A stretch of DNA of 64,000 nt, from the NCBI RefSeq assembly GCF_014161445.1, contig NZ_JABBXA010000001.1:1-64000 (forward strand), read 5' to 3'. Below, piece after piece: positions 25,497-62,128 of the stretch. Under the pieces are notes generated by a model that worked only from the letters and a program-made list of their open reading frames with translations, searched no databases and was not told where the DNA came from. The position numbers and the translations under genes were made by a program. Source of the stretch: Microbispora sp. H13382 (lineage in GTDB: Bacteria; Actinomycetota; Actinomycetes; Streptosporangiales; Streptosporangiaceae). Position 1 is the first letter of the stretch. Each line of letters starts with the position of its first letter.

Positions 25497-25816
25497 CCGG
25501 CGCCCGCCGCCCGTTCACAGGAGCCGTCCGCACCGGACCACGAGCGCCCCGGGACGTGTCGCCACGCCGCGGGGCGCTTCGCCGTGTCCGCGTGCCCGCC
25601 GCCCGGGAAACGCGCTGCCCGGGAACGCGTGCGCCGCCGGGGAAGATCCGGCGAGCATCCCGGAAGATGCGCGGGTCACAGCCCGGACGTGACGATGACG
25701 GGGTGACGGTCGCGCTGCCTCCCGCTCCACGGGTCCACCGGCCGCGACCCGACCGGAGCCGCCGCCGTGGTGCCGGTAGCGGCCGCTTCCGTACCCAACC
25801 TATGGCGGGGTGAGAG
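25497..25816. other. 320-bp intergenic region; left edge of biosynthetic cluster
   Basis: No gene can be supported here on either strand. The only structured element is the first copy of the bipartite cluster promoter signal (25655-25701). This places the boundary between the uronate island and the biosynthetic cluster inside this gap. Confidence 0.6.
25655..25701 (+). promoter_or_regulatory. Bipartite cluster promoter signal, aminomutase gene
   Basis: GCATCCCGGAAGATGC (25655-25670), 20 bp, then GACGATGACGG (25691-25701), pointing at the aminomutase start 116 bp further on. The second word continues GGTGACGG, almost identical to the copies in front of the epoxide hydrolase and FAD oxygenase genes. 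Confidence 0.75.
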
Positions 25817-27439
25817 ATGACTCTGGTCGAGACCGAGACGTCAGTCGATTTCGACGGTGAGACCCTGGACATCGCGACCGTACGGCGTGTCGCGGAGAAC
25901 CAGGTGCCGTGCGGCGTGGCGCCCTCCGCGCTGGCCAAGGCCGCGGCCAACAGGCGGCAGTTCGAGGACATCGTCCGGCAGGGCATCCCGGTGTACGGGG
26001 TGACCACCGGGTACGGCGAGATGATCTACATGCTCGTGGACACCTCCAAGGAGGTGGAGCTGCAGACCAACCTGGTCCGCAGCCACAGTGCGGGGGTCGG
26101 GCCGACCTTCGCCGAGGACGAGGCGCGGGCGATCGTCGCGGCCCGGCTCAACGCCCTAGCCAAGGGCTACTCCGCGGTCCGGCCCGAGCTGCTGGAGCGG
26201 CTCGCGCTGTACCTGAACCTGGGGATCACCCCGGCCATCCCCGAGATCGGCTCGCTGGGCGCCAGCGGCGACCTCGCCCCGCTGGCGCACCTCGCGTCCA
26301 CGGTCATCGGTGAGGGGTACGTCCTGCGCGACGGCCGCCGGGTCGAGACCGGCCCGATCCTGCGCGAGCTCGGCATCGAGCCGCTGCGGCTGCGCTTCAA
26401 GGAGGGGCTCGCCCTGATCAACGGCACCTCGGCGATGACCGGGGTCGGCTCCCTGCTCGTCAGCAGGGCGCTGGACCAGGTGCGGCAGGCCGAGATCGTC
26501 ACCGCGCTGATCTGCGAGGTCCTGCAGAGCTCCACCAGCCCCTTCGTCGCCGACGGGCACGACGTGGCCCGCCCCCACCGGGGCCAGATCGACGCCGCCG
26601 CCAACATGCGTGCCCTGCTGCGGGGCAGCCGCCTCGCCGTGGAGCACGGCGACCTGCGGCGGGCGCTCAAGGACGGCGCGGAGGCGTCGCCCGGCGCCGA
26701 GGGCGCGGGCGTCCACCGCACCGAGGTCTACCTGCAGAAGGCGTACACGCTGCGGGCGATCCCGCAGGTCGTCGGCGCCGTCAGGGACGCCGTCTACCAC
26801 GCGTCCGGCACCCTGGAGATCGAGCTCAACTCCTCCAACGACAACCCGCTGGTCTTCGAGGGCAAGGAGGTCTTCCACGGGGCGAACTTCCACGGCCAGC
26901 CGGTCGCCTTCGTGATGGACTACCTCACCATCGCCCTCACCCAGCTCGGGGTCTTCTCCGAACGCCGCACCAACCGGCTGCTCAACCGTCATCTCAGCAA
27001 CGGCCTTCCCGAGTTCCTGGTCGCGGGGGACCCCGGCCTCAACAGCGGGTTCGCCGGCGCGCAGTACCCCGCCACCGCGCTGGTCGCCGAGAACCGGACG
27101 ATCGGCCCGGCCAGCATCCAGAGCGTCCCGTCCAACGGCGACAACCAGGACGTCGTCAGCATGGGCCTCATCGCCACGCGCAACGCCCGCAGGGTGCTGG
27201 AGAACAATCACAAGATCCTCGCGGTGGAGTACCTCTCCGCCGCCCAGGCCGTGGACCTGTCGGGCAGGTACGACGGGCTCAGCCCGGCCGGCAAGGCGGC
27301 GTACGAAATGGTGCGCTCGCTGGTGCCGACGCTCGACAGGGACCGTTACATGGCCGACGACATCGAGCTGGTCGCCGCCGCGCTGTCCCGGGGCGAGTTC
27401 GTCAACGCGGTCGCCCGCGCCGACCTCGAACTGCGCTGA
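25817..27439 (+). CDS. Tyrosine 2,3-aminomutase (MIO enzyme, SgcC4-like)
   Basis: A 540-residue member of the MIO-cofactor ammonia-lyase/aminomutase family. Ala149-Ser150-Gly151 in GSLGASGDLAPL form the MIO group. The catalytic Tyr60 lies in VYGVTTGYGEM, with LVRSHSAG (His90) near the substrate site. VTTGYGEMIYM, with a Glu after the second Gly, and the C-terminal SIQSVPSNGDNQDVVSMGL are the version I recall from SgcC4 of the C-1027 cluster, which turns L-tyrosine into (S)-beta-tyrosine. Product and stereochemistry here are inferred. It is the first gene of the biosynthetic cluster, has its own bipartite promoter signal, and converges on the hydroxylase gene with a strong terminator between. 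Confidence 0.88.
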   Translation: MTLVETETSVDFDGETLDIATVRRVAENQVPCGVAPSALAKAAANRRQFEDIVRQGIPVYGVTTGYGEMIYMLVDTSKEVELQTNLVRSHSAGVGPTFAEDEARAIVAARLNALAKGYSAVRPELLERLALYLNLGITPAIPEIGSLGASGDLAPLAHLASTVIGEGYVLRDGRRVETGPILRELGIEPLRLRFKEGLALINGTSAMTGVGSLLVSRALDQVRQAEIVTALICEVLQSSTSPFVADGHDVARPHRGQIDAAANMRALLRGSRLAVEHGDLRRALKDGAEASPGAEGAGVHRTEVYLQKAYTLRAIPQVVGAVRDAVYHASGTLEIELNSSNDNPLVFEGKEVFHGANFHGQPVAFVMDYLTIALTQLGVFSERRTNRLLNRHLSNGLPEFLVAGDPGLNSGFAGAQYPATALVAENRTIGPASIQSVPSNGDNQDVVSMGLIATRNARRVLENNHKILAVEYLSAAQAVDLSGRYDGLSPAGKAAYEMVRSLVPTLDRDRYMADDIELVAAALSRGEFVNAVARADLELR

Positions 27440-27473
27440 GCGACCGGCCGGAACGGCCGGGACCGAGAACCGG

Positions 27474-27510
27474 GGAACGCCCGGGGCGGGACTCCCGCCC
27501 CGGGCGTTCC
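27474..27510. terminator. Strong terminator after aminomutase gene
   Basis: Perfect 17-bp GC stem (27474-27490 with 27494-27510) and 3-nt loop, 34 bp after the aminomutase stop. Confidence 0.85.
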
Positions 27511-27650
27511 GCGTGCGGGCACGGGCGCGGTACGGGCACGGCACGGGCCCGGCAGGGACGCGGCGCGGGCGCGGAGGCGGGGGAGGAGGGCGCGCGGCGA
27601 GCGGAGTGGGGCAGGACCGGCCCCGGTGGCGCGAGGCCGGGAACGGCGAA

Positions 27651-27680
27651 CGCGCCGGATCCCGGGGGAGATCCGGCGCG
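27651..27680. terminator. Hairpin downstream of the hydroxylase gene
   Basis: An 11-bp perfect stem (27651-27661 with 27670-27680) and 8-nt loop, about 60 bp past the end of the minus-strand hydroxylase gene. The sequence between the two hairpins (27511-27650) is G/C-rich with short repeats such as CGGGCACGG and shows no gene. Confidence 0.65.
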
Positions 27681-27741
27681 CCGGTGGTCGTGGTCTCGGC
27701 AGGGGCCGCGGCCGGGGCGGCGGTGGCCGTCCCGGCGGGGC

Positions 27742-29328
27742 TCACAGGTCGAACAGGCTCTTCTTCGCCTGCCGCAGCTCCTCGAACGAGGACAGGTCGG
27801 GAACCGTCCAGCCGTCCAGGTCGTACTCGCTCAGGCACTCGTCGACGAACGCCTTGTAGCCGTCGACCTGGCCGTTGGCGATCTGCGCCGACAGCAGCTC
27901 CACCCTCGTGTTCTCGTGGTTGCCGGCGTAGTTGCGCTCGTACAGCTCGTGCCGGCCGCCGAACTCGGTGCCGACGGCGTCCCACAGGAGCTTCATCACC
28001 TTGATCCGCTCGACCGAGTCGATGCCGTCCGAGCCGCGCAGGTACTTGTCCAGGTACGGCCGGACGTCGGGGTTGCGGAAGTCCTCGGCGCCGGAGTTGA
28101 CGTAGATGAGGCCGCTGGCGATGTCCTGCTCGACGATCTCCTTGACCCGGGGGTAGCCGATCTGCATGAACCACCGGTAGGCCAGGCCGTACGCCGGGTT
28201 GGGCAGGACGGCGCCGTTCACCCACGGGACGGGGTTGCGCGCGGCGGCGTCCGACAGGCCCCAGAACAGGTTGCGCCAGGCCAGCACCTCGCCGATGCGG
28301 CTCTGCACGCCCCGGAAGTCCTTGGTCCCGGTGATCTCCACCGCCTTGGCCAGCAGGCCGGCGATGAACTCCAGCTTCACCGCCAGCCGGGTGCACCCGT
28401 GGAAGGTGAAGCGCTCGGGGAAGCCGGACCGGCCGGTGAAGAGCTGGACCTTGCCCAGGTGCCCGTAGATGAAGACGTTCTCCCAGGGGATGAGCACCTT
28501 GTCCAGCACGAGGATCGTGTCGTTCTCGTCCAGCCGGGAGGACAGCGGGTAGTCGAACGGGCTGCCCATCACGGCGGCCATGGCCGAGTAGGACGGACGG
28601 CAGATCAGCTTCAGCCCCGGGGCGCCCATCGGCACGGTCGCGACCAGGGCGAACTTCTTGTCCTTGATCGGCAGGCCGTAGTGGGCGATGAAGTTGTAGT
28701 GGGTCAGCGCCGAGCCGGTCGCCACGACCTTGGCGCCGCTCACGACCAGGCCCGCGTCGGTCTCCTTCTCGACGTGCACGAAGACGTCGGCGACCTCGTC
28801 CGGCGGCCGGTTGCGGTCGACCGGCGGGTGCACGATCGCGTGGTTCCAGAACAGGACCTTCTCCTGCGACTCGCGGTACCACCGCCGGGCGTTGTCGGAG
28901 AAGGGCTCGTAGAACTCCGCGTTCGCGCCGAGCGTGCCGAGGAACGCGCCCTTGTAGTCGGGGCTGCGCCCCATCCACCCGTAGCTCATCCGGGCCCAGG
29001 CCGCGATCGCCCGCTGGTCGGCCACCAGGTCGTCGGCGCTGCGCGGGGTGGTGAAGAAGCTGTGGGTGTAGCCGTCGCTGCCGGTGTCGGTCGGCACGAC
29101 GAGGGCGTCCCGCCGGTCCGGGTCGTGCAGGGCGTCGTACAGCCGCGCCGTCATCCGGATGGGGTTGTGGAACGCCGGATGCGTGGTGACGTCCCGGACC
29201 CGCTCGCCGTACAGGTAGATCTCGCGGTCGTCGCGCAGGCTCTCGACGTACTCGGCGCCGGTCAGGGGACGCGTCTTCCGCGGCGGAGCGTGCTCCGCCG
29301 CGAGCGGCGCGTCGTGGAGGTCTGTCAT
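27742..29328 (-). CDS. HpaB-type FADH2-dependent phenol hydroxylase (SgcC-like)
   Basis: A 528-residue oxygenase of the 4-hydroxyphenylacetate 3-monooxygenase large-subunit family. The N-terminal domain starts [24 protein letters not shown] and includes [13 protein letters not shown]. The flavin-binding middle has [14 protein letters not shown] and [18 protein letters not shown], and the C-terminal domain includes [18 protein letters not shown]. These enzymes need free reduced flavin from a separate reductase. In C-1027, SgcC hydroxylates the beta-tyrosyl ring while it is bound to a carrier protein; the same role is inferred here from the neighbouring aminomutase. Start ATG 29328 after GGAAGGGA. 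It lies 35 bp downstream of the acyl-CoA-dehydrogenase-like gene and is probably co-transcribed with it. Confidence 0.88.
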
Positions 29329-29363
29329 CGCCAGATGTCCCTTCCTTCTCGGTCGTCCGGGGC

Positions 29364-30611
29364 TCACCCGTGGTCCGCGACGCCGAACCGGGCCCGGGCC
29401 AGGTCGCGCTTGGCGATGGTGGCGAGGAAGGTCGAGACGCCGGCGTGCGTGACGAACATCGACATGTCCCGCCACACGCGCTCGATCCGCTCGCCCCGCC
29501 GTACGGCGCTCGACCCGGCCGTGGGGAACAGGTAGCGCTCGACCGCGCGCCAGCACAGCGACACCACCTCGGCGCAGATCGCGGCCAGGCGCAGCTCGTG
29601 CTCGTGGGTGACCGCCGCCGGGCCCTGGGCGCAGGCCTCGCGCCACTGCCGGATCGCGTCCATGGTCGCGGCCTCGGCCGTGGCGATCAGGCCGGCGGCC
29701 TTGCCGTACCTGAGCTGGAAGTCCGGGTCCTGCGAGCGCACCACGATGGGCGGGAACGGGGTGGTGCGGGTGCGCATCAGGTCCTCGTACCCGTCGAGCG
29801 CGCCCTTGGCCATGCCGACGGCGAGCACCGCGTCCTCCATGACCATGAAGCTGAGCTGGCCGCCGCCGTACTCGGGGTTGCCGTGCAGGGCGCGCCCCGG
29901 CGAGCCCTCCCTGACGTCGATCTGGCTCATGTGGGTCTTGATCGTGTAGCGGTCGGGGACGCGGCCGCCGGTGATGCGGATGCTGTGGGAGCCGCTCCCC
30001 TTGAGGCCCAGCGCGTGACCCCAGTCGTCCAGGCGGGTCCACTGGTCGCGCGGCGCGATGAACATCATGGGCTCCGGCTCGCCGCCGTCCTCCGGGGTGA
30101 CCATCGCGTGGCCCATGAAGTGCGTGGCGTACGGCGAGCCGGAGCAGTAGCCCCAGGTGCCGTCGACCACCCAGTCCCCGTCCGCGGTGCGCTCCGCCGT
30201 GCCGCCGGGCACGACCGTGGCCGGGCAGATGAACTCGCCGGAGGCGAAGATCTCGTCCTGCACCTCCCGGGGGAACACGGTGGCGGCCGGGAGCGCGTGC
30301 GCGGCGCCCAGACAGAACATCCAGCCGGTCGAGGGACACCCCCGGGTCAGCGCGATGGCGACCCGCATGAACGTGTCGATGCCGAACTCGTAGCCGCCGT
30401 ACCGGCGGGGCACCAGGATCCGGTAGAACCCGGCCTTCCGGAACTCCTCGTGGACGTCCTCTCCGTAGTACGTGCGCTGCTCGGTCTCCGCCTGGCGTTC
30501 GACCAGGCGGGGCACCATGGCCTCGGCCCTCGCGACCACCTGCTCGGGCGTGAGGCCGGGCTCGGGAGGGGACGGGAGGCGGTGCTCGGGAAGATCGGTG
30601 ATGACTCCCAT
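29364..30611 (-). CDS. Acyl-CoA dehydrogenase-fold flavin monooxygenase (HsaA-like)
   Basis: A 415-residue group D flavoprotein with acyl-CoA dehydrogenase fold: an N-terminal helical domain ([42 protein letters not shown]), a middle beta domain ([23 protein letters not shown]) and a C-terminal four-helix domain. The pattern fits FADH2-dependent hydroxylases such as HsaA rather than true acyl-CoA dehydrogenases, as no clear catalytic Glu motif is seen. ATG 30611 follows GTGAGGAA; the frame runs further up to 30731 without similarity. It is the first gene of a minus-strand pair with the HpaB-like gene, driven by a bipartite promoter signal, so a second ring hydroxylation or an amine oxidation is possible. 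Confidence 0.78.
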
Positions 30612-30651
30612 GCTGCGCGGTTCCTCACGGTCTCGTGGGCGTACGGATACG

Positions 30652-30698
30652 CGGTCAGCGTCACACCCGCCACCGGACCGGTGCATCTCCCGAAATGC
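30652..30698 (-). promoter_or_regulatory. Bipartite cluster promoter signal, hydroxylase pair
   Basis: In gene direction: GCATTTCGGGAGATGC (30698-30683), 20 bp, GACGCTGACCG (30662-30652). The second word lies about 41 bp upstream of the ATG at 30611. Confidence 0.7.
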
Positions 30699-30727
30699 CC
30701 TGCCATATCGCGGGACGTGCGGGCATG

Positions 30728-30774
30728 GCATTCCGGGATAAGACAGCGCGCCGGAGCCCCGGAGAGAATCCGAG
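30728..30774 (+). promoter_or_regulatory. Weak bipartite signal, N-methyltransferase gene
   Basis: GCATTCCGGGATAAGA (30728-30743) is a diverged first word. At +20 the second word is poor (GAGAATCC). It faces the N-methyltransferase gene and is the divergent partner of the site at 30683-30698. Confidence 0.4.
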
Positions 30775-30880
30775 TGCGGTTCCCCGTCCCGGAGACGGTC
30801 AAGTAGCGGACGAGGCGCCCCCGCGACGCCGGACGCGCCCGGCGTCCGCGTGGCGGGCGCCCTGGCGGTTGGGAGTTGCG

Positions 30881-31636
30881 GTGACCACAGTCGACAGCCG
30901 AACGCGGGACGACAACGTCTACGGAGAGGACGTCAGCGAGATCTACGACCTCCTCTACCAGCGGCGCGGCAAGGACTACGCGCAGGAGGCCGCCGTGGTG
31001 GCCGGTTTGATCCGCGACCACGCCCCGCACGCGGCGACGCTCCTCGACGTGGCCTGCGGCACCGGAGAGCACCTCAGGTCGCTGCGGACGATGTTCGAGC
31101 ACGTCGAGGGCGTCGAGCTGTCCGACGCCATGCGGGAGCGGGCCCGGGCCAAGCTGCCCGGCGTCGCCGTCCACCCGGGGGACATCCGCGACTTCGACCT
31201 CGGCCGGTCCTTCGACGCCGTCTGCAGCCTGTACGGCACGGTCGGCTACATGGCGGGCACGGAGGAGCTCGACGCCGCGATCGGCAGCATGGCAAGGCAC
31301 GTCGCCCCGGGCGGTGTGCTCATCGTCGAGCCGTGGTACTTCAGGGACGGCTTCGCCGACGGCCACATCGGGCACGACGTCGTCCGCGACGAGCACCGGG
31401 TGGTGGCGCGGGTCGCGCGGTCCGTGCGCGCCGGCGACACCGTCGAGGTGCGGGCCCACTACCTCGTCGGCGACGGCGACGGGGTGCGCCACTTCGAGCA
31501 CGTCCAGGTCATGAGCCTGTTCTCCCGGGAGGAGTACGCCGCCGCGTTCCGGCGGGCCGGCCTCGACGTGACCTGCCTGGAGGAGACGGGCGACATGCTC
31601 GCCGGGCGCTCGCTGTTCCTCGGCGTGCGCCGGTGA
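30881..31636 (+). CDS. NDP-aminosugar N-methyltransferase (DesVI/TylM1-like)
   Basis: A 251-residue SAM-dependent methyltransferase. VYGEDVSEIYDLLYQRRGKDYAQEA at the N-terminus is the hallmark of the sugar N,N-dimethyltransferases DesVI and TylM1. SAM motif I is LLDVACGTGEH, and YGTVGYM and VLIVEPWYF follow. The GTG start 30881 lies after GGGAG; the frame upstream is not conserved. It begins a plus-strand run with the aminotransferase (16 bp gap) and the C-methyltransferase, pointing to an N-methylated amino sugar. Mono- versus di-methylation cannot be told. Confidence 0.85.
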   Translation: MTTVDSRTRDDNVYGEDVSEIYDLLYQRRGKDYAQEAAVVAGLIRDHAPHAATLLDVACGTGEHLRSLRTMFEHVEGVELSDAMRERARAKLPGVAVHPGDIRDFDLGRSFDAVCSLYGTVGYMAGTEELDAAIGSMARHVAPGGVLIVEPWYFRDGFADGHIGHDVVRDEHRVVARVARSVRAGDTVEVRAHYLVGDGDGVRHFEHVQVMSLFSREEYAAAFRRAGLDVTCLEETGDMLAGRSLFLGVRR

Positions 31637-31652
31637 GGGGGAGGGGCGGGCG

Positions 31653-32783: not shown

Positions 32784-32857
32784 TTGCCGCGCCATTGGCG
32801 GAACGCACCGCAACCGCCGATAAGAAATGCCGCGGACAGCGGTGTTAACGTCCAGTC

Positions 32858-34078: not shown

Positions 34079-34094
34079 GTGCTATTCGGAATAA

Positions 34095-34141
34095 GCACGG
34101 GCGGAGATGCGGCGGCGCGCCGCGGATGCGAATGATGGAGT
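34095..34141 (+). promoter_or_regulatory. Bipartite cluster promoter signal, acyltransferase/P450 pair
   Basis: GCACGGGCGGAGATGC (34095-34110), 20 bp, AATGATGGAGT (34131-34141). It lies in the short gap after the C-methyltransferase and points at the acyltransferase start at 34224. Confidence 0.6.
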
Positions 34142-34223
34142 CGCCGGAAAGCGTCATCCCGAGATTGCCCAGCGTTTTCCCGTTCGCCGGCAGGGGCAGT
34201 CCGAGTGGAAAGGAAGACCCACC

Positions 34224-35423: not shown

Positions 35424-35467
35424 GCGATTCCTCGTCCAACGCACCGAAGCAAACCCTGGAGACATCC

Positions 35468-36709: not shown

Positions 36710-36735
36710 GCGCTGCGGACCTCGCGGCCCGGCCA

Positions 36736-36780: not shown

Positions 36781-36790
36781 CCGTCGCCCG

Positions 36791-50588: not shown

Positions 50589-50634
50589 GCACTCTGGGAG
50601 ATGTGACCGCGCCGCCCGCCACGGACGATGGCGT
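50589..50634 (+). promoter_or_regulatory. Bipartite cluster promoter signal, methyltransferase pair
   Basis: GCACTCTGGGAGATGT (50589-50604), 19 bp, GACGATGGCGT (50624-50634), 74 bp upstream of the methyltransferase ATG. It is the divergent partner of the site at 50536. Confidence 0.7.
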
Positions 50635-53122: not shown

Positions 53123-53263
53123 GAGCACAGCTGAGAACACACGGCTGAGAGCACACCCGCGCGGCTGAGCGGGCGTACGTCAGGGCCGGTCCGGGCATCC
53201 GGGCCGGCCCTTCCGCCGTCTGCGGGGGGCCGTGCCTCTGCCGGAGCGCACAGCACAGGAGAA

Positions 53264-53293
53264 GGCCGCCGCCCCCGGTGGGGGACGGCGGCC
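53264..53293. terminator. Terminator hairpin between convergent genes
   Basis: A 13-bp stem with one mismatch (53264-53276 with 53281-53293) and GGTG loop, 18 bp past the minus-strand solute-binding-protein gene. Confidence 0.7.
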
Positions 53294-53310
53294 CTGGGTG
53301 CGGCGGGGGC

Positions 53311-54765: not shown

Positions 54766-54812
54766 CCCATCTCCTGTGCTCGCTCGCTCTTGTGGCTTCG
54801 GCGGGCCCGGCG

Positions 54813-56135
54813 CTACCGCCGGTGCTGGCCGGTCAGCTTCTCCAGGTCGGGGACGATGTCCGAGGGGCTCGGCTTGGCCAGCCACTCCTCGTGCACCGCG
54901 TCCGCGCCCGCCCGGATCGACGGGTCCTCCAGCGCCTTGACGATCAGGTCGCGGACCTCCTCGGCCGACTGCTTCTGGTGGTCGAGGCGCAGTCCCGCTC
55001 CGCGCCCGGTCACGAACGCGGTGGCGATCGGCGAGAGGATGTGCCGCTCGGGGATCGTGCTGCCGCCGTCCTCGTGGAACTCCAGCCGCTGGCTCTCGTC
55101 GGTGTCGGTGATGATCTGCGGGAGGTTCGCCGCCACCGAGGACCAGAAGGTGCCGCTCGACCCGTGGTTGATGCTCACCGAGCAGGACGGCAGCAGCTGG
55201 GTCAGCGGGACGTAGTCGACCGTGCGCACGTTCGGGGGCAGCGGGGGCAGCCCGACGAGCTGGTCGGCGTTCAGCGTCGCGACGAGCTCGACGTCCAGGT
55301 CGGCGACGGCCTCGAGGATCTTGGGGGTCCGCCACTCGCCCTTGTGGTAGGTCCGGGTCGACAGGCCCACCGACAGGGCGATCCGGGGCCGCTCCGGCCT
55401 GCCGTACAGCCACTCCGGCACGACGCCGCCGCCGTTGTAGGGAATCCAGCGGACGGGCAGCGAGGTGAGGTCGCGGGACAGGCGCATCTCAGGCGGCAGC
55501 GGGTCGAGGGTCCACTGCCCGAGCAGCAGCTCCTCGTCGACCTCGACGCCGTAGCGCTCGGCGAACGGGCGCACCGCCTCGGCCAGCGGGTTGAGCACGT
55601 CGCCCGAGCCGGTGGCGCCGCCGGCCTGCTCGGCGAACCTCTCGGTCGCCCAGCCGCTGTAGTCGGGGCCCATCAGCATCCGGGCGTGCGCCGCGCCGCA
55701 GGCGCGTGCCGCCACGGCTCCGCCGGGGAACCAGGGGTCCCACAGGACCAGGTCCGGCCGCCAGCTCCGGGCGAACGCGACCAGGGCGTCGTTGTCGGTG
55801 CTGGGCTCCGGCGGGAGGTGGTACTTCGCCGCGGACAGCAGGAACTGGAAGAACACGTCCCAGCTGTCGCGGTCGGCGGAGCCGATCTTCACGGCGTCGG
55901 CGAGACGGTCCATCTCGCCGGGGTTGGGCGCGAGGTCGGGCCTGGCCCACCCCTGCGCGGTCGCCTCAGGAGTGCCGCAGACGACCGCGCTGAGGCCCGC
56001 CGCCACGATGTCGGCCTCGGCGCCCGGAGGGCAGACGATGCGGACCTCGTGTCCCGCGGTCTGCAGGGCGTGGGCGTACGGAATGATCGGGTACAGGTGG
56101 CACTTCTGCGGCCAGACCGTGAGCATTACCTTCAT
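54813..56135 (-). CDS. Natural-product glycosyltransferase (GT1)
   Basis: A 440-residue GT-B fold glycosyltransferase of the macrolide/enediyne type. N-terminal MKVMLTVWPQKCHLYPIIPYAHALQTAGHEVRIV is the acceptor domain start, LVLWDPWFPGGAVAARACG follows, and the C-terminal donor motif is SINHGSSGTFWSSVAANLPQIITDTDESQR, a variant of the HGGxGT...P.Q signature. ATG 56135 follows CAGGAG. It most likely attaches the amino sugar made by this cluster to the enediyne core. It diverges from the apoprotein gene across a 512-bp repeat-containing region. Confidence 0.9.
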   Translation of the reverse strand: MKVMLTVWPQKCHLYPIIPYAHALQTAGHEVRIVCPPGAEADIVAAGLSAVVCGTPEATAQGWARPDLAPNPGEMDRLADAVKIGSADRDSWDVFFQFLLSAAKYHLPPEPSTDNDALVAFARSWRPDLVLWDPWFPGGAVAARACGAAHARMLMGPDYSGWATERFAEQAGGATGSGDVLNPLAEAVRPFAERYGVEVDEELLLGQWTLDPLPPEMRLSRDLTSLPVRWIPYNGGGVVPEWLYGRPERPRIALSVGLSTRTYHKGEWRTPKILEAVADLDVELVATLNADQLVGLPPLPPNVRTVDYVPLTQLLPSCSVSINHGSSGTFWSSVAANLPQIITDTDESQRLEFHEDGGSTIPERHILSPIATAFVTGRGAGLRLDHQKQSAEEVRDLIVKALEDPSIRAGADAVHEEWLAKPSPSDIVPDLEKLTGQHRR

Positions 56136-56323
56136 CGAGGCTCCTGAATCAGTGAGGGACGTGGACCGCGGCGGGAGAGCGCCGGGGCGTCCCACCCGGC
56201 CGCGCGAGTTCAGGGCCGCCCGGCGGGCACGGCGGCGTGGGGCGAGCGATGGCGACGCGGGTGCTCGGCCGGGGCACGCGCGCGAGCAGCGGCACGCCGC
56301 GGTCGTGGCCGGGACCTCGCATG

Positions 56324-56369
56324 CCGCCAGCGTCACATCGCCGCCTGATCACGCGCATCTTCCCTCGTG
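56324..56369 (-). promoter_or_regulatory. Bipartite cluster promoter signal, glycosyltransferase gene
   Basis: In gene direction: GCACGAGGGAAGATGC (56369-56354), 19 bp, GACGCTGGCGG (56334-56324). The first word overlaps the left end of the tandem repeat array. Confidence 0.65.
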
Positions 56370-56481
56370 CGGAGCACGGCCAGGACGTCTCGTGCGGAGC
56401 ACGGCCAGGACGTCTCGTGCGGAGCACGGCCAAGAGGTCTCGTGCGGAGCACGGCTGAGCCGAGCTCGTGCGGAGCACGGC
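56364..56481. repeat. Five tandem copies of a palindromic 17-bp element
   Basis: TCGTGCGGAGCACGGCC starts at 56364, 56389, 56414, 56439 (last base T) and 56465, a period of 25, 25, 25 and 26 bp. The core CGTGC-GGA-GCACG is a perfect inverted repeat. Linkers are AGGACGTC-like. With a period near 2.4 helical turns and a palindromic core, the array looks like a multi-site operator between the glycosyltransferase and apoprotein genes. Confidence 0.9.
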
Positions 56482-56647
56482 CGGGAGTCCTTGATCAATT
56501 TGATGACGAATATCAATGACTTCGCTGACAGAAAGGTGTCAAGTCGCGCGCAACATGCTGACACGGATTTGTCTGGATTGCCGGTCCCGAATCAAGCAGA
56601 TTTGTTCTTGCAAGCACCACTGACCGCTCGAAGAAAGGATGCGGAAA

Positions 56648-57076
56648 ATGAGGAACAAGACCGGTGTTCTCGCCAAGCTCGGTGTCGCCGCCGCCATGAT
56701 GGTCGGTCTGACCGTCGCCTCCCAGACGGCCGCAGCGGCCGCCGCGCCCACGTTCTCCGTGTCGCCGGCCTCCGGCCTGCACGACGGAGACACCGTGACG
56801 GTCACGGTGACCGGCGCCGGCGCGAACGAGGTGTACGGCATCGCGCAGTGCGCCAACATCGGCGCGTCGTTCGGGTGCGACGGGAGCACCGCCACCACGT
56901 TCACCACCAACGCGAGCGGCGCGGCCACGTTCACCTTGCCCGTGCACAAGAGCTACCAGGCCGTGACGCACGACGGCGTGTCGCTGGGCACGGTGGACTG
57001 CGGTACGACGAGCTGCTACATCGGCGCCGGGAACGAGAACCTGGCTCTCGGGGACGTGCTCCTGTCCTTCCGCTGA
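56648..57076 (+). CDS. Neocarzinostatin-family chromoprotein apoprotein
   Basis: A 142-residue secreted protein. A signal peptide (MRNKTGVLAKLGVAAAMMVGLTVASQTAAAAA) is followed by a mature domain of about 110 residues beginning APTFSVSPASGLHDGD. This opening, QCANIGASFGCDG and TVDCGTTSCYIG match the immunoglobulin-like apoprotein family (neocarzinostatin, C-1027 CagA, kedarcidin, maduropeptin). Cysteines at mature positions 36, 45, 86 and 91 copy the two disulfides of neocarzinostatin (37-47, 88-93). The protein binds, protects and exports the labile enediyne chromophore. The second ATG (56648) is preferred to 56639 because AAGAAAGG then sits 9 bp upstream. Confidence 0.93.
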   Translation: MRNKTGVLAKLGVAAAMMVGLTVASQTAAAAAAPTFSVSPASGLHDGDTVTVTVTGAGANEVYGIAQCANIGASFGCDGSTATTFTTNASGAATFTLPVHKSYQAVTHDGVSLGTVDCGTTSCYIGAGNENLALGDVLLSFR

Positions 57077-57095
57077 GCCGGGCATCCGCACCAGA

Positions 57096-57140
57096 AGATG
57101 GGCCCTGCCGGTATGCCAATAAAACCGGCAAGGCCCATCT
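57096..57140. terminator. Terminator after apoprotein gene
   Basis: A 17-bp stem with one mismatch (57096-57112 with 57124-57140) and an 11-nt loop, 20 bp after the apoprotein stop, facing the convergent MFS gene. Confidence 0.85.
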
Positions 57141-57264
57141 CCGGGCGAATCTCGGTGTTCACCGTCGCCTGCGCGAAACGGAGGGCTCGCGGCCCGGGTG
57201 CGTGCGCGCCGCCCCCGGGCCCGCCTCCCGCCTCTCGTTCACGACGGGTTGTTTGGAAACGGCA

Positions 57265-58893
57265 TCAGGAAATCCGCGCCGCCTCGGCCGGCTCCTGGAC
57301 GGCCTCCGCCTCCGGCTCGGGCAGCCGCTCGCCGCCCTCCTCACCCGTGCCGTCCTGCTCCGCGTCGCCGGTCGCGGGAACGTGCCGCAGCGCGACCGCG
57401 GCCAGCGTGGCGAGCACGAGCGCGATGGCGGCGCTGACGCCGGCGGTGGAGTTCAGCGCCGTGGTGAAGGCCTCGCGGGCGGTGGTCAGCAGGTCGGTCG
57501 CGAGCGGGGCGGGCAGCTGCTGCGCGGCGGCGTAGGCCCCGGCGATGCTCTCCCCGGCGGTGCCCGCCGCCTCGGCCGGGACCCCGGCCGGGATGGTGCC
57601 GGACAGCGCGCCCTGGTAGACCGCCGTGCCGACGCTGCCGAGGACGGCGATGCCGAACGCGATGCCGAACTCGCCGGTGGTCTCGGAGATCGCCGACGCG
57701 GAGCCCGCCTTCTCCGGCGGGGCGGACCCGATGACGAGGCCGGTGCCCAGCGCTCCCATGGGACCCGCGCCGACGGAGCTGACGATCAGACCGGCCACGA
57801 GCAGGGCGACGCCCGTCGCGCTGCCCACCTGCGTGATCAGCAGGTAACCGGCCGCCGTGACCACCAGGCCGCCCGCGATGACGTACGCGGGGCGGACGCG
57901 CCGCGCGATGGCCGGGGCCATCATGACGCTGGCGATCGTCGCGAGTGTCGAGGGGACCAGCCAGCCTCCGGCCTGCAGTGGCGAGAGCCCCTCGACCGTC
58001 TGCAGGTACAGGTTGACCAGCAGGTGGGTGCCGCTCATGACGCCGCCGCCGATCATGATCACCAGGGCGACGCTGAACGCGCGGTTGCCGAAGAGCCGTA
58101 GGTCGAGCAGCGGGCTGGCCAGGCTGCGCTGACGCCGTACGAAGACCGCGCCGACGATCAGGCCGGCCACGACGGAGGCGACGGGCAGCACCTGCCAGCC
58201 GTTCCTGGCCACCTCCTTGAGGCCGTAGATGACCGGCATGATGGCGGCCAGGGAGAGCGCCACGCTGGCGAGGTCGAGCCGTCCGCCCTCGGGGTCCCGA
58301 TACTCGGGCAGCAGGCGCGGCCCGACCAGCAGGAGCAGCCCCATCACCGGCACGCCGAGCAGGAACACCGAGCCCCACCAGAAGTTGGTGAGCATGATCC
58401 CGCCCACGACCGGGCCGATCGCCATGCCGCCCATGAAGCAGCTCATCCAGACGGCGATCGCCATCCCCATCTGCTTGGGGTCCTTGAACATGATGCCGAG
58501 CAGCGACATGGTCGAGGGCATCAGCGTGGCCCCGGCGACGCCCATCAGCGCCCTGGTGGCGATCAGCATCTCCGGGCTGGACGCGTACGCGGCGAGCGCC
58601 GAGGCGGCGGCGAAGCAGGCCGCGCCGATGAGCAGCAGCCTGCGGCGGCCGATCCGGTCACCGAGCGTGCCCATCGTGACCAGGAAACCGGCAATGAGGA
58701 AGCCGTAGATGTCGGTGATCCACAGCTGCTGGGTCGCGTCGGCCCCCAGGTCGATGCTGAGGTGCGGCAGCGCCAGGTACAGCACGCTCATGTCGAGCGA
58801 CAGCAGCAGCGTGGGCAGGGCCAGGACGGCCAGCCCGATCCATTCCCTGCGCCCGGCCCGCTCGGCCGGGCCGGATTCGGTGCCTGCGTGCAT
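57265..58893 (-). CDS. MFS efflux transporter (DHA2, SgcB-like)
   Basis: A 542-residue exporter with about 14 transmembrane segments. GDRIGRRRLLLIG (motif A) and GVAGATLMPSTMSLLGIMF (DHA2 motif C) are clear, and the charged tail is long and acidic. Its place beside the apoprotein gene suggests it exports the enediyne product or a precursor, as SgcB is thought to do in C-1027 producers. ATG 58893. It is a paralogue of the protein at 3973-5505 with the same motifs but only moderate similarity. Confidence 0.9.
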   Translation of the reverse strand: MHAGTESGPAERAGRREWIGLAVLALPTLLLSLDMSVLYLALPHLSIDLGADATQQLWITDIYGFLIAGFLVTMGTLGDRIGRRRLLLIGAACFAAASALAAYASSPEMLIATRALMGVAGATLMPSTMSLLGIMFKDPKQMGMAIAVWMSCFMGGMAIGPVVGGIMLTNFWWGSVFLLGVPVMGLLLLVGPRLLPEYRDPEGGRLDLASVALSLAAIMPVIYGLKEVARNGWQVLPVASVVAGLIVGAVFVRRQRSLASPLLDLRLFGNRAFSVALVIMIGGGVMSGTHLLVNLYLQTVEGLSPLQAGGWLVPSTLATIASVMMAPAIARRVRPAYVIAGGLVVTAAGYLLITQVGSATGVALLVAGLIVSSVGAGPMGALGTGLVIGSAPPEKAGSASAISETTGEFGIAFGIAVLGSVGTAVYQGALSGTIPAGVPAEAAGTAGESIAGAYAAAQQLPAPLATDLLTTAREAFTTALNSTAGVSAAIALVLATLAAVALRHVPATGDAEQDGTGEEGGERLPEPEAEAVQEPAEAARIS

Positions 58894-59037
58894 GAAGGAG
58901 TCCTTCCGTCTGGTCGCCCGGGCCGTTGCGGGGGAGCGACGACGAGCGATTGTCGGGTGGGGGTGCGCGCGCGTCGCTCTTCACCGGCTCCGCACACGCG
59001 GCGGCTTCCGGCGGGGCCGCGGCCCCGCCGGCGAGCC

Positions 59038-60408
59038 TCAGCGCAGGGGGGCGTCGGGAGTGGTGACCACCGCTCGCAGCACGCTGTCGAACTCGGTCAT
59101 CCACTCGGCCATCGTGTCGGCCCGCCACAGGTTGGTGTTGAAGCCCAGAGTCCCGATGATCTCTCCCGACGGGGTGAGGTTGAGCTCGCACAGCGAGCCG
59201 TCCGGGATGTCCCCGCCCACCGGCTGCGAGACGAGCCGCGGCACCTCGGCGTACTCGACGTCGCCGACCACCTCGCCGGCCATCCCGAAGGGCGACTGGA
59301 AGACCTGGAAGAGGAACAGCGCGCGGTCGTCGGCCGCCGCCGGGGCCATCAGCTCCGGCGCCTCGGCGGCGATCTGGGCGAAGGGGATGTCGTGGGAGTA
59401 GGCCTCCAGGCAGGTCGCGCGGGTCCGCCGCACCGCCTCCTGGTAGCTGTCACAGCCGGTGAGGTCCGTACGCAGCGGGACGAAGTTGAAGAACGACCCC
59501 ACGGTGGTGTGGAACCGCTCCTGGGTGCGCCCGGTGGTGAACGTCGGGACCACGATGTCGCTCACGCCGGTGATCCGGTTGAGCAGGATGTTGTTGGCCG
59601 CGAACAGGACCATGAAGGTGGAGCAGCGCAGCGCCTTGGCGGTCCGGCGGGTCGCGGCGCTCAGCTCGGGGCCGAGCGTGAACCGGTGCCACCCGGTCGT
59701 CTTGGCCAGCCCGGCCGACCGCGGGTGGTCGGTGGGCAGCGTCAGGATGCTCGCCCCCCGCAGCTTCTCGCGCCAGTACTCCCGCGCGCGGTCCAGGGCG
59801 GGGGACGAGGCGCGCTCCTGCTCCCACAGCGTGTAGTCGCGGTACTGCGGCGCCTCCGGGAGAGCGGCGACCTGCCGCCCGCGCCGCGCGGCGTAACTGT
59901 GGGCCAGGTCGCGCATGATCACGTGCATCGACCACGCGTCGGCCGCGGTGTGGTGCGCGATCAGCACGAGGACGGCGTCCTCGTCGTCGAACCGGGCCAG
60001 CACGGCCCGCAGCAGCGGCACCTCGCGGGCGCTGTAGGAGCCCGCCTCGATCTCGTTGACGAGTTCGCCCGCGCGGCGGTCGCGGTCGGCGGGGGCGACG
60101 CCGGACAGGTCGCGCAGCGTCAGCTCCACCGGGCCGGACGGGAGGATCCGCTGGTGGCGGTCCTCGGGGTCGCGGACGATCAGCGTGCGGAGGGCCTCGT
60201 GGCGCTCCGCGACGTCGTGCAGGGCCGCCCGCAGGGTGTCGACGTGGACCTTTCCGCGCAGCCGGCTCGCGTAGAAGATGTTGTATCGGGGGCCGAAAGG
60301 CCCGGAATCGTCTCCCTCGTCGAAAATGCAGAGGAATTCCTGGTTGAGAGAGAGGGGCACCCGGCTCGCCGGCTCGCTCGGCGCGTTCGGGATCTCGGAG
60401 ACGCTCAC
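59038..60408 (-). CDS. Free-standing condensation enzyme (SgcC5-like)
   Basis: A 456-residue stand-alone NRPS condensation domain. The catalytic HHxxxD is H152-H153-TAA-D157 in LIAHHTAADAWSMHVIMRDL. VPLSLNQEFLCIFDE, RHEALRTLIV, YRDYTLWEQE and the DFRR-like GRTQERFHTTVGSFFNFVPLR segment follow in the family order. In C-1027, SgcC5 joins the carrier-bound beta-tyrosine to the enediyne core as an ester. The same step is inferred here. Start GTG 60408 with AAAGG upstream. It follows the MFS gene in gene order on the minus strand. Confidence 0.9.
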   Translation of the reverse strand: MSVSEIPNAPSEPASRVPLSLNQEFLCIFDEGDDSGPFGPRYNIFYASRLRGKVHVDTLRAALHDVAERHEALRTLIVRDPEDRHQRILPSGPVELTLRDLSGVAPADRDRRAGELVNEIEAGSYSAREVPLLRAVLARFDDEDAVLVLIAHHTAADAWSMHVIMRDLAHSYAARRGRQVAALPEAPQYRDYTLWEQERASSPALDRAREYWREKLRGASILTLPTDHPRSAGLAKTTGWHRFTLGPELSAATRRTAKALRCSTFMVLFAANNILLNRITGVSDIVVPTFTTGRTQERFHTTVGSFFNFVPLRTDLTGCDSYQEAVRRTRATCLEAYSHDIPFAQIAAEAPELMAPAAADDRALFLFQVFQSPFGMAGEVVGDVEYAEVPRLVSQPVGGDIPDGSLCELNLTPSGEIIGTLGFNTNLWRADTMAEWMTEFDSVLRAVVTTPDAPLR

Positions 60409-60453
60409 ACCACAAGCCTTTCGCTAGCAGGCGGTTTCGCCCTGTGTTTGCGC

Positions 60454-60479
60454 GCGCGGGTAGCTCAGATGGTAGGAGC
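60454..60479 (+). other. tRNA 5'-half-like fragment
   Basis: GCGCGGGTAGCTCAGATGG, continuing TAGGAGC, has the seven-base acceptor strand, TA, and a perfect four-base D-stem (GCTC/GAGC) around a D-loop with GG. No anticodon stem, T-loop or acceptor partner follows. It is not a working tRNA but may be the remnant of one, or of an integration site. Confidence 0.45.
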
Positions 60480-60510
60480 GGGTTTCCCGGGCACGCTTAT
60501 CCTGGATTGC
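60464..60510 (-). promoter_or_regulatory. Partial bipartite signal, condensation enzyme gene
   Basis: In gene direction the first word is GCAATCCAGGATAAGC (60510-60495), close to the copy in front of the 3-dehydratase gene. The second word at +20 is poor and overlaps the tRNA-like fragment. Confidence 0.45.
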
Positions 60511-60535
60511 CGTATACGGCCGGCCGGCGCGGAAT

Positions 60536-61882
60536 TCACCGCCCGACGCCCTGGTAGACGTAACCGAGCCGGCGCAGTTCCGCGATCTTGTCTTTCGGGT
60601 AGTAGGCCCGGCCGTCCAGCACCAGGCAGTCCGGCGCCACCGGCAGGTCCGCGAAGTCGATGTCCCTGAACGGCCGGTGCAGGGCCATGACGGCGACGCA
60701 GTCGGCGTCCTGTACGGCCTCCCGCAGGTCGGCGCAGGGAGCGACGCCGAACAGCGCCTCGGCCTGCACCGGGTCCACCAGCGGGTCGTGGACGCGGACC
60801 GTGGCCCCGGCCTTGGCCAGCGTCGTCACGAAGGCCTCCACCGGCGTCGCCCGCAGGTCGCCCGTGTCGTTCTTGAACGCCGCGCCCAGCACGGCCACCG
60901 TGGCCGTGGCGGGGTCCTTGCCGAGCCGCACCAGCGTGTCGACGACCAGCTGCGCCGCGTACTCCGGCATGCCGGTGTTGACCCTGCGCCCGGCCGGGGC
61001 GGTCTGGATCTCCAGACCACGCCGGCGGGCCGAGTGCCAGACCATCCACGGGTCCTTGACCAGGCACGAACCGCCCACGCCCACGCTGGGCAGCAGGATG
61101 TTGACGTTCCCCGTGCCCTTGGGGACCGTGTTGGCCGCGGCGATCACGTCGAGCACGTCCACGTCGTACAGCGCGCAGAACTTGGCCAGCTCGTTGGCGA
61201 GCGCGATGTTGAGGTCGATCCACCAGTTGTCCGCCAGCTTCACGATCTCGGCGGCCTCCGGGGAGTCCATCGGGACGATCGCGACGTCGAGCACGCGGCG
61301 CCAGAACTCCATCCCGGCTTGGGTGCTGTCGTCGTTCAGCCCGCCCACGGCGATCGGGAGGGAGCGCAGCTCGCGCAGCGCGGTGCCCTCGGCGAACCGC
61401 TCCGGGGTGAACGCGAGCCCGAAGTCCTCACCCGCGACGAGCCCGCCGCGCTCCAGCAGCGGCCGGGCCAGATCCCGCGTGGTGCCGGGCGGCACCGTGC
61501 TCTTGAGCAGCACGAGCTGGCCCTCGCGCAGGTGGGCGCCGAGACGCCGGCACGCCTCGCGCAGGTGGTCGTCCAGCAGCGAGCCGTCCGGGTGGACGGG
61601 CGTGCTGACGGCGACGAGCACCACGTCGGCGTCCCGTACGCCGGCGTAGTCGGCGGTCACCCGGAGGCGTCCGGACGCGACCGCGGCCGCGACGAGTTCG
61701 GGCAGGCCGTGCTCCTGGTAGCGGCAGTGCCCGCGGGCCAGTTCGGCGAGCAGGGCGGTGTCGATGTCCACGCCCGTGACCCTGCAGCCGCGGTCGGCCA
61801 GGATCGCCGCCAGGCACGAGCCGACGTAGCCGAGTCCGACGACCGCCACTTTCAGGTCCCGCTGGTCGGGTAGGAAACGCAT
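60536..61882 (-). CDS. NDP-sugar 6-dehydrogenase (UDP-glucose dehydrogenase-like)
   Basis: A 448-residue NAD-dependent nucleotide-sugar dehydrogenase. VAVVGLGYVGSCLA binds NAD. VSTPVHPDGS, KSTVPPGTT and FTPERFAEGTA are family motifs, KLADNWWIDLNIALANELA forms the dimer helix, and the catalytic Cys is in GVGGSCLVKDPW. The last motif is intermediate between UDP-glucose dehydrogenase (GGSCFPKD) and WecC (GGHC..DPW), so the exact sugar is uncertain. With the UXS-like gene it would give a UDP-pentose for the amino sugar. ATG 61882 follows CAGGAG; codons further up are not conserved. It diverges from the 3-dehydratase gene. Confidence 0.87.
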   Translation of the reverse strand: MRFLPDQRDLKVAVVGLGYVGSCLAAILADRGCRVTGVDIDTALLAELARGHCRYQEHGLPELVAAAVASGRLRVTADYAGVRDADVVLVAVSTPVHPDGSLLDDHLREACRRLGAHLREGQLVLLKSTVPPGTTRDLARPLLERGGLVAGEDFGLAFTPERFAEGTALRELRSLPIAVGGLNDDSTQAGMEFWRRVLDVAIVPMDSPEAAEIVKLADNWWIDLNIALANELAKFCALYDVDVLDVIAAANTVPKGTGNVNILLPSVGVGGSCLVKDPWMVWHSARRRGLEIQTAPAGRRVNTGMPEYAAQLVVDTLVRLGKDPATATVAVLGAAFKNDTGDLRATPVEAFVTTLAKAGATVRVHDPLVDPVQAEALFGVAPCADLREAVQDADCVAVMALHRPFRDIDFADLPVAPDCLVLDGRAYYPKDKIAELRRLGYVYQGVGR

Positions 61883-61983
61883 GAAACGCTCCTGAGTCGA
61901 AATGGGAATGTGTTTCCTGGTGTTGCCGGGCGCGTCCCCGTCGATATTTCCGGCGTACCGCCGGATCCTGACGCGATTCTCCG

Positions 61984-62030
61984 TTCGCATCGTCATTCCC
62001 GGCCGCCGCCCGCCGCATCTCCCGGCGTGC
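61984..62030 (-). promoter_or_regulatory. Bipartite cluster promoter signal, NDP-sugar dehydrogenase gene
   Basis: In gene direction: GCACGCCGGGAGATGC (62030-62015), 20 bp, GACGATGCGAA (61994-61984). Confidence 0.7.
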
Positions 62031-62082
62031 GAAAGGGAAAAACGCCGCGCGTAATACGGCGCGAATTACGACGCCCGGGGCG

Positions 62083-62128
62083 GCAATCCAGGAGATGCGG
62101 GGCGGTCGGCGCCGCCGGATGCTGGGAC
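62083..62128 (+). promoter_or_regulatory. Bipartite cluster promoter signal, 3-dehydratase gene
   Basis: GCAATCCAGGAGATGC (62083-62098), 19 bp, GATGCTGGGAC (62118-62128), 84 bp upstream of the ATG at 62213. Confidence 0.6.

Follow-up and report, generated by a model that had tools for sequence, protein, structure and literature searches.

What turns on the tailoring and precursor genes of an enediyne cluster, and through which DNA sequence, is the question raised by a 64,000-nucleotide stretch of the genome of Microbispora sp. H13382 (hereafter the window). An earlier note on this DNA described a two-word signal shared by many of its promoters, reading GACGAT as a possible -10 element and the first word as an activator site; our sequence comparisons support that reading. 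The bipartite signal is real and extends beyond the range in which it had been described.

A bipartite signal in the cluster promoters

When 34 promoter regions of the Microbispora cluster were searched for motifs de novo, the box (first word), a 20-base gap and GACGATG were recovered, with a log-likelihood of 271 against 98-102 in four shuffles that were given fewer seeds (150 versus 500 for the real promoters). The first word, GCAnnnnnGRAGATGC, is an asymmetric box of 16 bp with its centre at about -40.5. Allowing up to two mismatches, it matches the window 13 times where 2.1 matches are expected, a count reached in none of 100 shuffles. A matrix trained on 14 boxes of the cluster, the scores of which are circular within that cluster because they derive from its own boxes and which was tested on other genomes, marks 13 window sites scoring 17 bits or more, as follows (N, gap in bases; gene families by Pfam unless stated otherwise).

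25655..25696 (+): box GCATCCCGGAAGATGC, N20, -10 GACGAT; faces the tyrosine 2,3-aminomutase gene at 25817 (TIGR03832 match, 947 bits); 31.7 bits
30657..30698 (-): box GCATTTCGGGAGATGC, N20, GACGCT; faces 30611 (acyl-CoA-dehydrogenase-like); 30.2 bits
34095..34136 (+): box GCACGGGCGGAGATGC, N20, AATGAT; faces 34224 (acyltransferase); 25.7 bits
40294..40335 (-): box GCATTCCAAAAGATGT, N20, GATGAT; faces 40221 (acyltransferase); 28.5 bits
41773..41814 (-): box GCACTGCGGAAGATGC, N20, GACGAT; faces 41707 (FAD enzyme); 34.0 bits
43199..43240 (-): box GCACTGCGGGAGATGC, N20, GACGAT; faces 43098 (epoxide hydrolase); 33.5 bits
44567..44608 (+): box GCAATTTCAGAGATGC, N20, CACGAT; faces 44712 (AMP-binding enzyme); 29.9 bits
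50510..50551 (-): weak box GCACGCTGGGAGACGC, N20, GAGCCT; faces 50448; 19.3 bits
50589..50629 (+): box GCACTCTGGGAGATGT, N19, GACGAT; faces 50709 (methyltransferase); 33.1 bits
56329..56370 (-): box GCACGAGGGAAGATGC, N20, GACGCT; faces 56135; 26.5 bits
60469..60510 (-): weak box GCAATCCAGGATAAGC, N20, TACCAT; faces 60408 (condensation domain); 18.1 bits
61989..62030 (-): box GCACGCCGGGAGATGC, N20, GACGAT; faces 61882 (UDP-glucose dehydrogenase family); 32.1 bits
62083..62123 (+): box GCAATCCAGGAGATGC, N19, GATGCT; faces 62213 (DegT/DnrJ aminotransferase); divergent partner of 62030; 27.4 bits

All eight copies previously described as clear (25655+, 30698-, 41814-, 43240-, 50589+, 56370-, 62030- and 62083+) are among these sites. 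Three of the six described as weaker are good (34095+, 40335- and 44567+; 25.7-29.9 bits), two are poor (50551-, 19.3 bits; 60510-, 18.1 bits), and the copy said to face 30881 falls below 17 bits and is unsupported. The proposal that divergent gene pairs carry one copy each is solid for 62030-/62083+, has one weak member at 50551-/50589+, and is half borne out at the pair 30611/30881, which has a single convincing copy. The spacing is as had been described, 20 bases with 19 at 50589 and 62083. The second word, given earlier as GACGATGRCGG, reads GACGCTG at 30698 and 56370 and GATGCTG at 62083, and its RCGG tail is not general. The box was rejected as a perfect palindrome: symmetry is confined to its three outermost base pairs, and at pairs 4-8 there is no clear surplus above the column expectation.

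The earlier failure to see the signal upstream of 25.6 kb holds up: positions 1-25600 yield no matrix site reaching 17 bits, and among the ten proteins scanned in that part are members of the IclR, pectate lyase and ABC-transport families. Beyond the right edge of the window, further sites on the same contig (66945-, 82596- and 108388+) carry the box copies to 108.4 kb. Equal frequency outside the cluster, which the earlier note held would speak against the signal, was not found, as all seven sites with two or fewer mismatches in the 8.7-Mb genome lie inside the enediyne cluster; at three mismatches, 7 of 17 lie outside (control, 8). No Rfam family matched the window at gathering threshold.

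Promoter geometry

The second word behaves like a -10 element, its second base being A and its sixth T. When boxes were chosen on the first word alone, downstream conservation was clear at the second word and strongest at A(2), A/T(5) and T(6), as expected if GACGAT is a -10; among 73 distinct sites so selected, A reaches a frequency of 0.67 at position 22 and T 0.67 at position 26. The distance from the box centre to the -10 hexamer is 28 bp in 11 of the 14 own sites of at least 23 bits and 27 bp in the other 3. The box ends at the expected place of the -35, as the earlier note had supposed, and its position is fixed relative to the -10; this agrees with class II sites, which are centred near -41 and replace or overlap the -35. 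The predicted leaders, 41-193 nt long, are compatible with transcription beginning some 7 bp past the -10.

Occurrence in other enediyne loci and genomes

Carrying the matrix to other enediyne clusters, a check the earlier note had suggested, revealed the signal in most of the PKS loci. The set comprised the best 80 of 119 enediyne-PKS loci found (1.95 Mb), to which all counts in this and the following sentence refer; the tiancimycin and uncialamycin clusters lay outside the sequence comparison. The 20-base form at three or fewer mismatches occurs 70 times forward and once reversed, against 28 matches for a gap of 19, 1 for 18, none for 21 and 1-11 for each remaining gap in the range 10 to 30; at 20 bits or more, the Microbispora-trained matrix finds 148 sites versus 1 reversed, with a site in 71 of the 80 loci and none in 9. 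A de novo search of the 1.1 kb upstream of 75 PKS genes gave coding conservation and was set aside. Across many soil bacteria, the gene clusters for enediynes, which are antitumour toxins, seem to have one promoter signal in common. Tailoring genes some 2.35 Mb away from the core are marked by the box as well in one Streptomyces.

An AraC-family protein is encoded at 105759-106529, on the same contig and to the right of the window, where the earlier note had expected a StrR- or AraC-like regulator; the StrR part of that expectation failed, as no StrR homologue was found in the 143 kb of contig covered (one 39%-identity match lies on another contig). Presence of the AraC gene and of the box go together. 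Of 341 family genomes, 76 have an AraC match under 1e-60, and 53 of these bear at least two sites, against 12 of the 265 others (Fisher 4.5e-32); 11 of the 76, all with a close orthologue, have no site at two mismatches. Streptomyces genomes bear sites in 22 of 25 cases with such a match and in 1 of 20 without. One genome with six sites (G335) has an AraC homologue of just 42%. An orthologue exists in all 80 genomes carrying the best 80 of the 119 PKS loci, within the PKS locus in 68 (one, in L082, with an in-frame stop) and elsewhere in the assembly in the other 12. In G219, of which 100 kb was read throughout, boxes surround the AraC gene. An S. globisporus contig of 89 kb bears 12 boxes and the AraC gene, with neither LAL nor BTAD matched at 1e-15, and in 120 kb of G730 the AraC gene was likewise found, with neither of the two matched at 1e-3. 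The signal, its geometry, its confinement to these clusters and its co-occurrence with the AraC gene can all be read from the DNA.

A candidate activator and a proposed mechanism

The AraC protein has a two-helix-turn-helix DNA-binding domain (PF12833, 3e-21; PF00165, 5e-19), both recognition helices of which are near invariant among 57 orthologues. In a model of the 90%-identical L080 orthologue (pLDDT 87.6), this domain resembles those of MarA, SoxS and RamA. A C-terminal GyrI-like domain, as in Rob-type regulators, was not matched by Pfam at E up to 1 in five members, and a fold listing gave beta-sandwich matches for the C-terminal part. Covariation of helix and box in 40 loci with divergent AraC (p 0.002 at 20 bits, 0.014 at 22 and 0.58 at 24) was discounted because the classes were drawn post hoc and the effect is gone at 24 bits.

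Class II activation of the box promoters by this AraC-family protein is in our judgement the best explanation, and a probable one. The signal would be an activator-dependent promoter in which the asymmetric 16-bp operator replaces the -35, its centre lying some 40.5 bp ahead of where transcription is expected to start, with a main-sigma-type -10 (xAnnnT, often GACGAT) 20 or 19 bp past the operator. An AraC monomer would occupy the box with its two helix-turn-helix motifs in successive major grooves and, from the class II position, recruit RNA polymerase in the manner of RamA, SoxS and MarA; a dozen such promoters would thereby switch on tailoring and precursor genes together. Binding, activation, the sigma factor and the transcription starts are inferred.

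Other candidate readers of the box

The box might instead be read by another regulator of the cluster, namely the LAL of LuxR type (88899-91766), the BTAD/NB-ARC protein (82601-85756) or one of StrR type, which we regard as unlikely. Both LAL and BTAD genes are present in the Microbispora cluster, and occurrence does not separate the candidates: among the 27 box-rich family genomes (at least four sites), LAL at 1e-150 is found in 25, BTAD in 26 and an AraC orthologue under 1e-60 in 26, about equally, with a StrR match in 14; the outer GCA/TGC of the box is, moreover, dyad-like. Linkage and the core-operon pattern disfavour LAL or BTAD as the binder. Just 15 of the 27 have the two genes on the contig of the AraC gene and no more than about 40 kb from it, and in 10 both are on other contigs or more than 1 Mb away; G335 lacks both at 1e-150, and G305, also with six sites, lacks LAL. 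In the best 80 of the 119 PKS loci, a LAL of at least 576 aa was seen in 16, a full BTAD in 1 and StrR in 25, these absences being counted in pieces of 11-26 kb whereas missing AraC genes were traced into whole genomes. In many other enediyne clusters the core PKS operon has the box as well; where a LAL gene lies just upstream of that operon, as in the Microbispora cluster, the operon has no box. At 20 bits the core-operon box is found in 0 of 16 LAL-bearing versus 41 of 59 other loci, a threshold picked after a first count at 12 bits (5 of 17 versus 42 of 58, p 0.003). SgcR3, described as TylR-like, bound only one of eight C-1027 promoters tested, that of sgcR1R2 (PMC2657911). StrR was rejected as the binder, being present in 25 of those best 80 loci, absent from the Microbispora cluster and near the AraC gene in none of the 14 box-rich genomes that match it.

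A host regulator encoded elsewhere, with the box inherited along with the cluster promoters, would be compatible with the co-occurrence of sequences and seems to us a slightly poorer prospect still; such a regulator would be expected to have other targets, yet the seven best own-genome sites all fall in the cluster, 19 of the 20 Streptomyces genomes without an AraC match have no site, and the bases between the words vary widely while box, spacing and -10 persist. A dedicated, alternative sigma factor reading the two words as its -35 and -10 might be suggested by their fixed spacing and orientation and their restriction to one cluster, but we think it very improbable. With a first word of 16 bases and a gap of 20, the signal is larger than the usual -35/-10 layout, the second word carries the A and T of a main-sigma -10, and no dedicated sigma-factor gene was found among the proteins scanned. 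Chance, or the composition of GC-rich DNA, can practically be dismissed. In its favour, reversed matches are common at five mismatches (314 real versus 149 reversed in the best 80 of 119 PKS loci); it is contradicted by the stricter reversed-string controls, both by the lone reversed match at 20 bits and by four clusters totalling 412 kb, one of which trained the matrix, where 52 sites of at least 17 bits stand against none reversed.

Comparison with known systems

Most likely, the box is bound by the AraC protein of the SgcR2/UcmR7/TnmR7 type; the activator family is already known, and its DNA target is the new proposal. Pathway regulators usually have cluster-specific sites, and it is unusual for dozens of divergent clusters from different families to have one operator in common. 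On balance we favour, with some reserve and taking its parts jointly, the reading that this operator-activator pair is a common switch of 9-membered-type enediyne biosynthesis in several actinobacterial families: the box would be kept from Streptomyces and Lentzea to Nonomuraea and Microbispora and would be strict enough to pick out enediyne genes megabases from the PKS, lineage-specific upper tiers (StrR, BTAD or LAL) would feed the same AraC protein, and LAL would have taken over the core operon in one lineage. SgcR2, UcmR7 and TnmR7 govern the titres of enediynes, which form a class of warheads for antibody-drug conjugates. The predicted operator offers a reporter sequence for awakening silent clusters, may tell which genes belong to a cluster and expose tailoring genes unlinked to the core, and makes the question of the SgcR2-type target addressable by one binding assay.

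UcmR7 and SgcR2 are described as positive regulators, with UcmR7 homologues kept in several enediyne clusters (PMC8210685), and deletion of tnmR7 lowered tnmD more than 350-fold and tnmO more than 100-fold; TnmR7 was insoluble and could not be purified, and therefore no binding assay was possible (PMC9464397). Among the papers listed by searches of the freely accessible literature there was no published operator for SgcR2, UcmR7 or TnmR7; operator, promoter class and regulon are all proposed here. In S. globisporus JCM 4378, a protein (L093) that shares 53% identity with the Microbispora AraC protein is encoded next to the PKS of a C-1027-like cluster and to a StrR-like gene there; from this gene order we infer that L093 is SgcR2. 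The class II promoters of MarA, SoxS, Rob and RamA are a close known system, with a similar DNA-binding domain and the same class II position as proposed here; the RamA class II site on micF is CACT-7X-AAA (PMC8811837). In C-1027, SgcR3 is a higher-tier regulator above the AraC gene (PMC2657911), and in Microbispora the LuxR-type LAL may hold a similar upper tier, as suggested by a palindrome, GCATTYYRCGAAAWGC, present at both the core-operon and araC promoters of the cluster.

Gene content and promoter signal of the Microbispora cluster

The window encodes a tyrosine 2,3-aminomutase (TIGR03832, 947 bits), an HpaB-type hydroxylase, sugar-modifying enzymes and a condensation protein. To its right lie anthranilate-synthase-like and dihydroxybenzoate-dehydrogenase-like enzymes, DUF1702 genes and an enediyne polyketide synthase (PKS) sharing 94% identity with its counterpart in Microbispora sp. 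H11081 (locus L080), a predicted gene content that resembles that of C-1027-type 9-membered enediyne clusters. We scanned the window and 79 kb on its right (143 kb in all), taking spacing into account, for a 16-base box (GCAnnnnnGRAGATGC) followed, after about 20 bases, by a -10-like second word, and located the following sites, given by box start:

25655, 34095, 44567, 50589, 62083, 108388, plus strand, two-word sites
30698, 40335, 41814, 43240, 56370, 62030, 66945, 82596, minus strand, two-word sites
50551, 60510, minus strand, weak two-word copies

All 16 sites face a gene beginning 41-193 nt past the end of the second word, some of these gene starts being our own calls. The gap is 20 bases at 11 of the 14 full sites and 19 at the other three (50589, 62083 and 82596). 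Every site listed in the earlier note was recovered except the one assigned to the gene at 30881, and the RCGG extension that it gave to the second word is not general. Its remark that no copy was seen left of 25.6 kb in the promoters it had read agrees with a scan using a weight matrix built from 14 boxes of the cluster, in which no site of at least 17 bits occurs in 1-25600 or in 110000-143000. Ten proteins were scanned left of the cluster (1-25500), where the genes are of sugar-catabolic type (pectate lyase, ABC transporter, DHDPS-like proteins, IclR regulator); since these carry no box, we place the cluster edge near 25.6 kb.

Within the 64-kb window, the box alone has 13 matches at up to two mismatches against 2.1 expected, a number reached in none of 100 shuffles. 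A random-seeded expectation-maximisation search of 34 hand-chosen promoter regions, each 260 nt long and read on the gene strand, returned as its best motif a 43-base pattern present in 18 of them. Its log-likelihood was 271; four shuffled sets, for which fewer seeds were used, gave 98-102. The 8.7-Mb genome has two copies of the strict pattern (GGAGATGC, gap 17-22, GACGATG), both inside the window. With box, N20 and GACGATG at up to two mismatches, all seven genomic sites fall within the cluster, and the signal is thus not equally frequent outside it; three mismatches give 17 sites, 10 in the cluster and seven scattered, against eight for the reversed control.

Anatomy of the promoter signal

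The box is symmetric at its ends (GCA, TGC) and asymmetric in its body, with GGAGATGC directed toward the gene. When sites are picked solely by their first word (76 exact matches, of which 73 are distinct), the 20 bases that follow are nearly unconserved. Conservation resumes in the second word, with frequencies of A 0.67, C 0.73, G 0.52, A 0.58, T 0.67 and G 0.67. An A in position 2 and a T in position 6 of the -10 are required by the main sigma factor. With the second word set at -12 to -7, the predicted box centre is at about -40.5, a class II geometry, and the last three box bases coincide with the expected beginning of the -35.

Occurrence in other genomes

The two-word pattern at up to two mismatches is present in 148 of 341 genomes of the family. 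Twenty stretches fetched around such sites (L039-L058), picked because their sites were clustered or near perfect, each carry homologues (at least 38%) of at least four genes of the Microbispora contig region. Sites per genome average 2.92 in the 76 genomes with a match below 1e-60 to the cluster's AraC protein (a homologue of SgcR2, UcmR7 and TnmR7), 0.59 in 29 with a weaker match and 0.35 in 236 without one; the corresponding means for the reversed control, across these classes of the 341 genomes, are 0.11 to 0.20. At least two sites are present in 53 of the 76 versus 12 of the 265 others (Fisher 4.5e-32). Among 392 Streptomyces genomes searched, 25 have an AraC match below 1e-60, and 22 of these carry a site versus one of 20 unmatched genomes tested; the control pattern occurs once in the 45.

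An independent set of 80 loci (the best 80 of 119; 1.95 Mb) was fetched by PKS alone and takes in Streptomyces, Micromonospora, Actinoplanes, Lentzea, Actinomadura, Nonomuraea and others. At up to three mismatches, 70 matches have a gap of 20 bases, 28 of 19, one of 18 and none of 21, with 1-11 matches at each remaining gap and one in the reverse control; five mismatches give 314 real versus 149 control matches. A scan of these loci with the matrix trained on the Microbispora cluster found 148 sites of at least 20 bits versus one reversed (200 versus 12 at 17 bits), and 71 of the 80 loci carry one, absences being weak evidence in these pieces of clusters.

Candidate regulators

The regulators on the Microbispora contig, with the best two matches to a palindrome considered below, are:

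82601-85756, BTAD/NB-ARC protein, 12 kb from the PKS
88899-91766, LuxR-type LAL
105759-106529, AraC protein
92174-92189, plus strand, GCATTYYRCGAAAWGC match, core-operon promoter
106611-106626, minus strand, GCATTYYRCGAAAWGC match, araC promoter

Within the cluster, an isopropylmalate-synthase/HMGL-like gene (87008-88894) immediately precedes the LAL gene.

In the 80 PKS loci, which are short pieces, StrR was found in 25, LAL of at least 576 aa in 16 and full-length BTAD in one; the L080 piece shows no BTAD, whereas that of our cluster sits only 12 kb from the PKS. For this reason 27 family genomes with at least four sites were searched whole. StrR is present in 14 of them and near the AraC gene in none. 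LAL (25 of 27) and BTAD (26 of 27) are as frequent as the AraC orthologue and in 15 genomes lie within about 40 kb of its gene, so that either could by occurrence be the box binder. In ten genomes (G214, G216-G223, G303), however, both are on another contig or more than 1 Mb from the AraC gene, which in one of them, G219, is surrounded by boxes. Moreover, G335 has neither and G305 no LAL, each with six sites, and no LAL or BTAD match was found on an 89-kb Streptomyces contig with 12 boxes or in a 120 kb Streptomyces stretch with boxes. Unlinked LAL and BTAD genes together with boxes around the AraC gene therefore favour AraC as the binder by linkage, a choice that occurrence does not settle. 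A divergent-AraC test on 40 loci was post hoc and not robust. These readings of signal, binder and regulon are drawn from sequence alone.

The distant LAL and BTAD genes of the ten genomes form a neighbouring pair (for example G219:C1:4042317-4051620, G221:C1:6094129-6103471 and G303:C2:8188657-8198018). The araC orthologue of the Planobispora longispora enediyne locus (L082, 18238-18987) has one in-frame stop, so that this cluster may be unregulated or silent. Two Streptomyces loci (L217 in G466, L235 in G596) encode AraC homologues with an altered second recognition helix (SSVGTFSSCF) and lack any box scoring 20 bits or more within 20 kb; an operator change in these lineages is possible.

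Core operon and putative split cluster

The core operon was compared in 75 loci whose sequence extends to 5.5 kb on the upstream side of the PKS. Of the 59 that have no upstream LAL, 41 carry a box scoring 20 bits or more at this operon, versus none of the 16 that have one (Fisher 2.6e-7), the cut-off having been set after a first count at 12 bits (42 of 58 versus 5 of 17). The palindrome GCATTYYRCGAAAWGC, its pattern drawn from the LAL-bearing loci themselves, occurs at up to two mismatches in 12 of these 16, at 3.9-4.9 kb and 3' of the LAL gene, and also, in scattered positions, in 10 of the remaining 64 loci. This AT-rich element is found at core-operon and araC promoters of LAL-bearing clusters (L069, L074, L080 and others) and is possibly a LAL operator. 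LAL would then act on araC and the core operon, and AraC, downstream of this step, on the tailoring genes.

In the Streptomyces genome G730 (7.18-Mb contig), eight boxes scoring 21 bits or more at 4.757-4.777 Mb adjoin homologues of 12 query genes from our contig, 11 of them from the cluster. This box locus (C1:4745001-4785000; L192, L193) lies some 2.35 Mb away from the PKS. Ten of the 11 cluster genes have no 1e-20 match in the 80 kb around the PKS (7.10-7.18 Mb), though one, 78340, is weakly matched there (1e-15). No AraC gene was found in the 40 kb fetched at the box locus; the only AraC match at 1e-25 in the genome adjoins the PKS. G730 would thus hold a split, co-regulated cluster with one regulator acting on both loci.

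Comparison with a C-1027-like cluster

On the 89-kb contig of the C-1027-like cluster of S. globisporus JCM 4378, 12 distinct sites score 17 bits or more. One of these boxes (30.4 bits) stands at the core PKS operon; another, weaker at 20.8 bits, lies some 1.1 kb ahead of the first match in the unit containing the aminomutase homologue. SgcR3 is reported to have bound one of eight promoters tested, that of sgcR1R2, although its loss lowered sgcA1 and sgcC4 (PMC2657911). These C-1027 data fit a lower-tier activator acting at the structural genes.
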